Positions 41,651 to 44,330 of a DNA stretch of 64,000 nucleotides are shown one piece after another. This DNA comes from Woodsholea maritima DSM 17123 (GTDB lineage: Bacteria > Pseudomonadota > Alphaproteobacteria > Caulobacterales > Maricaulaceae). The notes below the pieces were generated by a model, which saw only the letters and a program-made list of their open reading frames with translations, was not told the origin of the DNA and ran no database searches. The stretch is from positions 124,001 through 188,000 of the forward strand of contig NZ_KB908059.1 in NCBI RefSeq assembly GCF_000382325.1, in the 5' to 3' direction. The position numbers and the translations under genes are program-made. Each line of letters opens with the position of its first letter. Positions within the stretch are counted from its first letter, which is position 1.

Positions 41651-42904
41651 CTAACGCGCATAGACTTTGGGCAGTTCTGACCATTGGGTGGTGTAGCGCG
41701 GGCTACGCCGCCCACAACGCATCGCCCATGTATGTTTACGTTCAATCCCTTGGGCACCATAAAATATCGTATTGCGCCCATCGCGATGATTGATGTGGTC
41801 CAGCGTTGCCATCAAGCGTGCCTGGCGCGGATCAGGGGCCGGGGCGAGAAGGCTCAATTGCTCTTCGCCCACTTGCACCAGATTAAGCAGCATCACCCCA
41901 CATTTTTGATATTTAAGGCCAGGTTGGAAAATCCGGTCCAATAGTTTGTGCGTGATTTTGATAATCTGGGCACTGTCCTGGGTGGGGGCAGGAAGGGTAT
42001 AGCTCAACCCTTCATGAAAGGGCTGGGGGCCATGACGCGGGGTGGAGATGAAGGCATAAACCCCGAGCGCCAAACTGTTCTGACGGCGTAACTTCTCACA
42101 GGCCCGCACACTGTAACAGGCCATCGCCTCGGCAAGATCCTCCTTTTTGCTTGTCAGTTTCCCAAAGGAGCGCGAGGAGAGGATGTTCTGACGCGGCGCG
42201 AGATCTGAGATCGCCAGGCAAGGCTGGCCATTGAGCTCGCGCAGTAATCGCTCGCCCACCACGCCCATGACTTTACGCGCCTGACGCGGATCCCAACAGG
42301 CCAGATCATACGCGTTAGTAAGGCCTTCGTGTGCTAAGCGCCTGGATAATCGCCGACCTATACCCCAGATGTCACAGAGCTCTGTCTTGCGTAAAACCTG
42401 AAGGCGTTGATCCTCGGTGCGAATTTCAAAAACACCGGTGTTTTTCTTCGCAACATGATTGGCAAGCTTGGCCAGGGTCTTGGTCGGGGCCAGGCCAAAG
42501 GCGACGGGTATGCCGGTCCATTGATGGATGCTGTCGCGCACCTCATGCGCCAGTTGGGTCAATTGCGCCGGATCGTCCCGGCCAAATTCTAAAAACGCTT
42601 CATCAATGGAATAGGCTTCAAACCGCGCGCCCGTTTCGCGCAGGATATGCATGACCCGCGCGCTCATATCGCCATAAAGCTGATAGTTGGACGAACACGC
42701 AATGCCACCGCACGCTTCATACTCTTTTTGAATTTTGAAATAAGGCGCAGCCATGTCGATATCCAAGGCTTTAGCCTCGTTCGAGCGCGACACCACGCAG
42801 CCATCATTATTGGAAAGCACCACGACCGGCTTGTTTTTCAAGCCGGGATTAAAGGCGCGCTCACATGAGACATAAAAATTATTGCAATCGACCAGGGCGA
42901 ACAT
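41651..42904 (-). CDS. umuC: Y-family DNA polymerase V subunit UmuC
   Basis: Error-prone translesion polymerase. The 417 residues hold the catalytic carboxylates in MFALVDCNNFYVSCE and SIDEAFLEFG, the steric-gate region near FYVSCER, helix-hairpin-helix segments in LCDIWGIGRRLSRRLA, and a beta-clamp binding sequence QLSLL (about residue 356). All look intact. The ATG at 42904 is two bases after the umuD stop; an in-frame TTG at 42910 would overlap it. The two genes form one SOS-controlled operon. Confidence 0.95.
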   Translation of the reverse strand: MFALVDCNNFYVSCERAFNPGLKNKPVVVLSNNDGCVVSRSNEAKALDIDMAAPYFKIQKEYEACGGIACSSNYQLYGDMSARVMHILRETGARFEAYSIDEAFLEFGRDDPAQLTQLAHEVRDSIHQWTGIPVAFGLAPTKTLAKLANHVAKKNTGVFEIRTEDQRLQVLRKTELCDIWGIGRRLSRRLAHEGLTNAYDLACWDPRQARKVMGVVGERLLRELNGQPCLAISDLAPRQNILSSRSFGKLTSKKEDLAEAMACYSVRACEKLRRQNSLALGVYAFISTPRHGPQPFHEGLSYTLPAPTQDSAQIIKITHKLLDRIFQPGLKYQKCGVMLLNLVQVGEEQLSLLAPAPDPRQARLMATLDHINHRDGRNTIFYGAQGIERKHTWAMRCGRRSPRYTTQWSELPKVYAR

Positions 42905-42906
42905 GA

Positions 42907-43368
42907 TCAAGGTCGCGGCTGGAGCAGGGCGTGCAGAACATGAACGGCCACGCCCCAGATCGTGATGTCTTCATACTGACTGATATCTAGATCGGTAAAG
43001 TCAGGGTGTTCCGCACAGAGAAAACGCTGGCGGCCGTGGAGCTTTAACCGCCGGATCATCAGCTCCCCATGACAGTCTACAACGACGATCTGACCGGAAA
43101 CGGGGGTTAGGCTGCGATCAATGACCAGAATGTCGCCGTCATGAATACCAGCCCCGACCATGGCATGACCGATGGCGCGGGCAAAAAAGGTGCAGGCGGG
43201 GTGTTGAACCGCATAGCGATGCAGATCGAGATCGCGCTCAAGATAATCATCGGCCGGAGAGGGAAAGCCGCCGGCCATTGTATTGACATAACCAGGCGGG
43301 GCGGTGCGCACGCCATCGCGATCATTACGGGCATTGGGGGGGCTATAGGCAGGGGGGTGCATGCTCAT
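42907..43368 (-). CDS. umuD: UmuD homologue lacking the Ser/Lys catalytic dyad
   Basis: UmuD is a LexA-like protein that cleaves itself after RecA activation and then joins UmuC. This 153-residue protein aligns along its length with E. coli UmuD (GFPSPADDYLERDLDL, QHPACTFFARAIGHAMVGAG, IHDGDILVIDRSL, ITIWGVAVHV). The catalytic Ser of GDSM is Ala69 (GHAM), and the catalytic Lys (FTVKKL in E. coli) is Arg106 (LMIRRL). I checked both codons in the DNA: GCC and CGG. The cleavage region is kept as AGG at 32-34. Start ATG 43368; GTG 43380 and ATG 43362 are alternatives. The SOS box is 20 bases upstream. Confidence 0.9.
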   Translation of the reverse strand: MSMHPPAYSPPNARNDRDGVRTAPPGYVNTMAGGFPSPADDYLERDLDLHRYAVQHPACTFFARAIGHAMVGAGIHDGDILVIDRSLTPVSGQIVVVDCHGELMIRRLKLHGRQRFLCAEHPDFTDLDISQYEDITIWGVAVHVLHALLQPRP

Positions 43369-43387: not shown

Positions 43388-43402
43388 GTTCATGTTATGT
43401 TC
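43388..43402. promoter_or_regulatory. LexA-binding SOS box of umuDC
   Basis: GTTC-N7-GTTC (GTTCATGTTATGTTC), an exact match to the alphaproteobacterial LexA site. It lies 20 bases upstream of the umuD ATG, so LexA would block the promoter directly. Confidence 0.9.
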
Positions 43403-43675: not shown

Positions 43676-43752
<77 letters not shown>

Positions 43753-44253: not shown

Positions 44254-44330
44254 GCCTCCGTAGCTCAACCGGATAGAGCGCCCGCCTTCTAAGCGGATGG
44301 TTGCAGGTTCGAGTCCTGCCGGGGGTGCCA
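44254..44330 (+). tRNA. tRNA-Arg (anticodon TCT)
   Basis: 77 bases with CCA. Acceptor GCCTCCG / CGGGGGT (two G-U pairs), anticodon stem CCGCC...GGCGG-like (CCGCCTTCTAAGCGG) giving TCT, T arm GCAGG-TTCGAGT-CCTGC. Confidence 0.94.

Follow-up and report, generated by a model that had tools for sequence, protein, structure and literature searches.

The window (the whole 64,000-nucleotide stretch of Woodsholea maritima DNA that was analysed) carries a umuDC operon on its reverse strand (Table 1). The umuD homologue is open throughout, from its ATG at 43368 to its TGA at 42909-42907. When its product of 153 residues is aligned to solved UmuD chains, Ala69 occupies the place of the Ser in 'GDSM' and Arg106 that of Lys97, where 1umu reads 'VKKL' and the 8gmt chain 'VAKL'. 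A preliminary description of this DNA had stated that both catalytic residues are replaced and that the neighbouring UmuC is intact, and both statements are confirmed: Ala69 (GCC) and Arg106 (CGG) stand in an open frame, and the umuC product possesses a complete domain set together with 'SIDEAF' and 'QLSLL'. Its corollary that self-cleavage should be impossible gains indirect support from the absence of both dyad residues. The SOS box of the same description is present as GTTC-N7-GTTC; as chance alone would produce 1.37 such matches in 64 kb, it is the location of this box, and not its mere presence, that counts as evidence. A comparable box, GAAC-N7-GAAC, is situated 41 bases before the ATG of the lexA gene of this genome.

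Table 1. Features of the umuDC region, in positions of the window.
Feature	Position	Strand	Basis
umuD homologue, 153 aa, without catalytic dyad	42907..43368	-	ORF, profile matches, alignment
Codon 69, GCC = Ala, replacing catalytic Ser (E. coli Ser60)	43162..43164	-	
Codon 106, CGG = Arg, replacing catalytic Lys (E. coli Lys97)	43051..43053	-	
Cleavage-bond position, codons 33-34, Gly-Gly, P1 = Gly	43267..43272	-	alignment
GFPSPADDY, retained; N-terminus of UmuD' in cleavable UmuDs	43243..43269	-	
Met31 codon, in-frame ATG 3 codons before Gly34; a start there would give MAGGFPSPADDY, near UmuD'	43276..43278	-	
umuC, ATG 2 nt past umuD stop; IMS, IMS_C, DUF4113 domains	41651..42904	-	
LexA-type box GTTC-N7-GTTC, 19 bases upstream of umuD ATG	43388..43402	+	

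In core sequence and fold the protein is a UmuD. It scores 133.8 bits with NCBIfam NF007621 ('autoproteolytic subunit'; cut-off 110) and 77.2 with Pfam S24 (PF00717; cut-off 23.3), and the top Foldseek matches of its AlphaFold2 model are 1ay9, 8gmt, and 1umu, the best of them being E. coli UmuD' 1ay9 with a TM-score of 0.89 by target. The model, a monomer that carries no information on the complex with UmuC, reaches block means of 95-97 in pLDDT for the core (residues 61-140), and the arm is of low confidence (49-54). Scores with the HumD profile NF051876 (76.9 bits, cut-off 120) and the LexA equivalog profile (49.5 bits against 110.95) fall short, and the protein is not a member of the HumD family. 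With E. coli UmuD/UmuD' (Pol V, S24 peptidase family) it shares the core fold, GFPSPA, and the arrangement with umuC behind a candidate LexA-type box, but it differs by the missing Ser-Lys dyad, by Gly instead of Cys at P1, and by a longer and different arm.

In the alignment to solved chains, Gly33-Gly34 corresponds to Cys24-Gly25 of E. coli. UmuDs have Ala or Cys, rarely Ser, before the Gly of GFPSPA: in 109 of 110 aligned rows with Ser or Cys in the active site, P1 is Ala (91), Cys (12), Ser (5), or Leu (1), and never Gly, so that AGG at residues 32-34, which had been taken for a conserved cleavage region, is in fact altered at the bond itself. Of the arm positions changed in the engineered E. 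coli UmuD 3A, Thr14 corresponds to Ala23, Leu17 to Gly26, and Phe18 to Tyr27, the numbering being carried outward without gaps from the Phe18-Tyr27 pair of the same alignment.

The host genome (3.1 Mb, 20 contigs) contains two Pfam S24 matches, the UmuD of the window and a LexA (TIGR00498, 183.9 bits). A search with PF00717 at E 1 finds no second UmuD, which answers the call of the preliminary description for a second umuD or a LexA-like protease: LexA is the sole other S24 protein found. Genes for tRNA-Pro (tgg; 43676-43752) and tRNA-Arg (tct; 44254-44330) lie beside this sporadic operon as possible insertion points, and G+C content shows no step.

Distribution and maintenance of serine-less UmuDs

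Close to W. maritima, loss of the dyad is rare. We compared 114 UmuD-like proteins of the same family, class, and phylum in which a G-x-P-x-x-A/G cleavage region is present (own protein excluded, identical ones counted once); they are part of all profile matches in the respective genomes and include 60 fetched additionally. The active-site pair is Ser/Lys in 106 of them, Cys/Lys in six, Asp/Lys in one, and Ala/Gln in one, the last being the single nearby case, in a survey that had been proposed for the GHAM and IRRL variants, in which Lys is lost along with Ser. UmuDs with Cys for the catalytic Ser and a retained Lys occur at seven loci (L004, L005, L296, L015, L019, L022, and L238), two of which (L004 and L005) belong to the family of the window genome. 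The gene umuD itself is sporadic, being found in 3 of 137 genomes of the family and 6 of 398 of the order, own genome included. In the tree the window UmuD forms a lone branch (end branch 0.73); the rows closest to it are live UmuDs, with 53% identity at best. Tests on 36 rows, with groups defined only once the tree was known, reject a clade uniting it with the Micrococcaceae group (p 0.008) but not one uniting it with Halomonadaceae (p 0.26). A strain-specific error is unlikely as a full account, as the frame is open and the changes affect both dyad residues as well as the cleavage site; the genus is represented by one genome.

A search of genome contigs with the window protein alone finds no relative, and a degenerate DNA pattern was used instead, which requires codons of the GFPSPAxD[YH] kind and, at the place of the Ser, a codon whose first base is C or G. 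Conservation of GFPSPA among its matches is therefore no evidence, and changes from Ser to Thr, Cys, Asn, or Tyr are missed. The pattern identifies at least 117 serine-less UmuD stretches in GTDB genomes and three in viral contigs, so that the earlier statement that there is no close precedent does not hold. Ten phylum names occur among the matches listed, i.e., Actinomycetota, Cyanobacteriota, Melainabacteria, Balneolota, Rhodothermota, Bacteroidota, Pseudomonadota, Spirochaetota, Thermodesulfobacteriota, and Edwardsiibacteriota, and none of the 121 matches listed, own included, has an in-frame stop inside the matched stretch. One viral match (L183) looks like a false match, a match from a metagenome-assembled genome labelled Bifidobacterium (L126) looks cyanobacterial by its sequence, and two stretches with the same protein each are represented by two loci (L040 = L074, L043 = L132).

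A tree of 184 non-redundant rows (74 serine-less, 110 with Ser or Cys), calculated with the two dyad columns removed, requires at least 16 changes for serine loss and has 16 serine-less-only clades among the matches listed; it is weakly resolved, with many forks unsupported, so that the figure of 16 holds for the best tree and is not an established number. Among the 74 serine-less rows listed, 47 have the pair Ala and Arg, 23 of these in one cyanobacterial clade, and Lys is replaced in 66, compared with none of the 110 others. Similar serine-less solutions seem to have arisen several times. A umuC gene adjoins 39 of the 74 rows listed, the remainder including loci that end too early to tell. 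In Synechococcus and Cyanobium (L065, L124, L142, L143, L175, L176, and others) there is a serine-less UmuD paralogue, mostly with GDAM/LRRL and with Ala at P1, that has no umuC directly behind it; a Ser-bearing UmuD-like stretch (GPSM, GVSM, or GESM) lies near the six loci named. At two other loci (L040 and L068), the serine-less umuD lies between a LexA-like gene with intact dyad, which directly precedes it, and umuC, which follows.

Serine-less UmuDs are maintained. Within groups, median dN/dS for pairs with dS of 0.1-1.5, which are not independent of each other, is 0.09 in Chromohalobacter (21 pairs) and in Balneolaceae (2), 0.17 in Chromobacterium (6), 0.20 in Glutamicibacter/Arthrobacter (11), 0.29 in Cyanobium (74), and 0.32 in Citricoccus/Micrococcus (6), with a highest value of 0.53 for any single pair in the six groups. 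These values describe other serine-less groups and not the window gene itself, which has no close relatives. Of 31 columns in which a single residue makes up at least 80% among 97 live umuC-linked UmuDs, the window UmuD retains 26, the five changes being the two dyad residues, Ile83 (Val), Val97 (Ala), and Ala141 (Val). At the same columns, the median number kept is 29 in live rows (range 20-31) and 25 in 52 serine-less umuC-linked UmuDs among the matches listed. The view that selection, and not decay, acts on this gene is thereby supported indirectly, by its own conserved columns and by the low dN/dS of the other groups.

Cleavage site, arm, and partner proteins

In umuC-linked rows, P1 is other than Ala, Cys, or Ser in 22 of 39 serine-less UmuDs listed compared with 1 of 89 others, and other than Ala or Cys in 27 of 39 compared with 6 of 90; Ser was counted as kept because live Halomonadaceae UmuDs have it too. 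Similarly, arm positions -8 and -7 (Leu17 and Phe18 of E. coli) are both hydrophobic in only 8 of the 39 serine-less umuC-linked rows listed, versus 62 of 89 others. These rows are related to one another, so that Fisher values for both contrasts overstate the difference, and a test that pairs the two losses, of P1 and of serine, along the tree has no power, with four supported pairs for all rows and three for umuC-linked rows, at a median p of 1. The joint erosion of arm and bond in umuC-linked serine-less UmuDs points to loose-arm behaviour, as in UmuD' mimics. A generally shorter arm in serine-less UmuDs is not supported, since the longest possible arm is 12 residues or less in 4 of 39 versus 4 of 89. 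Serine-less rows listed without umuC in reach, which are largely the picocyanobacterial paralogue and include early-ending loci, have Ala at P1 in 26 of 34 cases.

Whole-genome searches of 33 genomes, chosen for spread from those behind the pattern matches, separate 17 in which the serine-less protein is the only UmuD from 16 with a dyad-bearing partner, 15 of these partners being UmuD-type and one (genome G908) LexA-like. Weaker S24 matches were classed as LexA-like without reading every one, and many of the genomes are metagenome-assembled and of unstated completeness, so that the label 'only UmuD' may not be correct in every case. The cleavage site is lost (P1 not Ala, Cys, or Ser) in 12 of 17 only-UmuD genomes versus 2 of 16 partnered ones (Fisher p 0.0013), or, if only Ala and Cys count as kept, in 14 of 17 versus 5 of 16 (p 0.005). 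With G908 moved to the only-UmuD group, site loss stands at 12 of 18 versus 2 of 15 (p 0.004). After collapsing by lineage, with labels of our own, and adding the window genome, the ratio is 8 of 11 versus 1 of 12 (p 0.003); it becomes 8 of 12 versus 1 of 11 (p 0.009) when the G908 lineage is moved, and 7 of 11 versus 1 of 11 (p 0.024) when the window genome is also left out. The window protein, an only UmuD with Gly at P1, sits with the only-UmuD, site-lost group.

The UmuDs of a few serine-less lineages may be born short, i.e., UmuD'-like from birth, as suggested by their start codons. In Synechococcus lacustris (L076) and Pseudoclavibacter (L078), no start codons are available other than those 2-4 residues ahead of GFPSPA, and in L075 and L149 none other than those 10 residues ahead of it; in L106 an ATG is located at 12 residues and a TTG at 16. 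The window umuD does not belong here, unless its translation begins at Met31. In six Micrococcaceae loci (L070, L080, L100, L129, L139, and L173) P1 is Met, and a start there would give exactly MGFPSPARDY, with Shine-Dalgarno matches of 0-4 bases. In Microbacterium (L233; genome G886, C11:63558-64235) one ORF comprises two UmuD domains, the first arm-bearing and without dyad (GDAM/MRRL), the second armless with a dyad (GSSM/IKRL), resembling a fused substrate-enzyme pair.

Proposed role of an uncleaved UmuD as partner of UmuC

In standard teaching, error-prone Pol V is restrained by the RecA-driven cleavage of UmuD, and natural operons whose sole UmuD is unable to self-cleave would directly test the need for this step, as well as the role of a long uncleaved arm in the polymerase. 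At a probability of roughly 0.5, our best explanation is that the window umuD encodes a never-self-processing, standing UmuD'-like partner of UmuC that is controlled at transcription. The uncleaved arm would not lock onto the UmuD body, the uncleaved dimer would engage UmuC as UmuD' does, and the polymerase would be switched by LexA without the RecA-driven cleavage step. The sequence basis of this explanation consists of the absent dyad, the Gly-Gly bond, and the altered arm, along with the retained core, GFPSPADDY, umuC, and LexA box, and the lack of a further UmuD in the genome. Of the options offered by the preliminary description, uncleaved UmuD under transcriptional control fits best; formation of UmuD' in trans fits less well, with P1 also changed and no second UmuD in the genome.

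Engineered UmuDs of E. coli provide an analogy. UmuD 3A (T14A L17A F18A) is uncleavable with loosely held arms and is called a UmuD' mimic, and UmuD 18, from which the first 17 residues are removed, is uncleavable and a partial mimic with low but detectable mutagenesis (PMC5342242). In contrast to these engineered forms, the window UmuD occurs naturally, is devoid of the dyad itself, and still has an aromatic residue where E. coli has Phe18. Several points speak against an uncleaved, UmuD'-like subunit. Dyad-dead E. coli UmuD with a normal arm acts oppositely: S60A lowers UV mutagenesis (PMC3901139) and K97A keeps UmuC at the membrane (PMC4552617). In a Pol V model, the freed N-terminus of UmuD' is placed near the active site of UmuC, in its cleft (PMC11791011), and a 33-residue extension would obstruct that site; that UmuC has to accommodate this arm is the weakest step of the explanation. 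Tyr27 retains one docking position in the window arm, arms are not shorter in serine-less UmuDs as a whole, and the tree-aware pairing reported above, together with the live UmuDs that are nearest to the window protein, also counts against it.

Among the alternatives, all of which we regard as unlikely, the least improbable is that the window UmuD is a permanent inhibitor or checkpoint that binds UmuC uncleaved and restrains translesion synthesis. The E. coli variants S60A and K97A behave thus (PMC3901139, PMC4552617), and the window arm is long with its 33 residues; a LexA-controlled umuC beside a permanently inhibiting sole UmuD would, however, have no obvious use, and arm docking residues are partly changed in the window UmuD and mostly changed in its umuC-linked serine-less relatives. 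Next in rank comes cutting in trans at or near Gly33-Gly34 by LexA or another protease, which would produce normal UmuD'. E. coli S60A is cut by an active partner (PMC5342242), serine-less UmuDs keep Ala, Cys, or Ser at P1 in 14 of the 16 partnered genomes among the 33 chosen, the Microbacterium fusion joins a dead arm-bearing to a live armless domain, and LexA is present in the host genome. Against this stand the absence of Gly at P1 from all 109 Ser/Cys-bearing rows and of a second UmuD from the host genome. We know of no report of LexA cutting UmuD.

Somewhat less probable again is a direct synthesis of UmuD' (MAGGFPSPADDY) from Met31, by which translation would bypass cleavage. The in-frame ATG lies three codons before Gly34, and possible starts lie 1-4 codons before the Gly in L076, L078, L116, and the Micrococcaceae with Met at P1. 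However, its Shine-Dalgarno match of three bases is no better than that at the first ATG, which itself lies 19 bases after the LexA box. The contrast for an ATG at -1 to -5 is weak, such a codon being present in 6 of 39 serine-less rows linked to umuC, in 6 of 35 other serine-less rows that have no umuC within reach, and in 6 of 110 rows with Ser or Cys. The least probable alternative is that the operon was acquired and is decaying, its substitutions marking a loss of function in one lineage; the rarity of umuD nearby, the single genome of the genus, and the long end branch would agree with this, but both frames are open, a LexA box is present, the umuC domains are complete, and 26 of 31 conserved columns are kept, the changes being mostly conservative.

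The recurrence of switch-less UmuDs suggests that, in some bacteria, this polymerase operates without the cleavage by which it is thought to be controlled. More tentatively, and at slightly less than even odds, we propose that Pol V has repeatedly escaped its proteolytic checkpoint, UmuD in several lineages becoming a pseudoprotease and then losing its site or arm, which would leave UmuC with a constitutively UmuD'-like partner, and that a second class consists of dead UmuDs which keep the site as pure substrates for a separate live partner, once fused to it. No title or abstract among the matches listed from openly available papers concerns natural UmuDs without dyad, no experiment on one was found in the literature searched, and the accessible sections of PMC12926913, PMC6511836, PMC8565304, and PMC2921402 do not describe them. 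The annotation 'autoproteolytic subunit' need not hold for every gene so named.

HumD of phage P1 is a naturally short, UmuD'-like form that arises without processing, in contrast to the long-armed window UmuD, which stays below the NF051876 cut-off. The LexA of Synechocystis PCC6803 is a natural S24 protein said to be without nucleophile and cleavage bond (PMC2921402); it is a transcription factor and the window UmuD a polymerase subunit. YqjX and YolD of Bacillus subtilis, proposed UmuD analogues and small partners of a Y-family polymerase (PMC12926913, PMC6511836), belong to a separate family. Serine-less UmuDs of Micrococcaceae, Halomonadaceae, Balneolaceae, Melainabacteria, and other groups have lost the dyad likewise, such a protein being the only UmuD in 17 of the 33 genomes chosen, and the window protein is 30-46% identical to the 29 serine-less UmuDs aligned with it.
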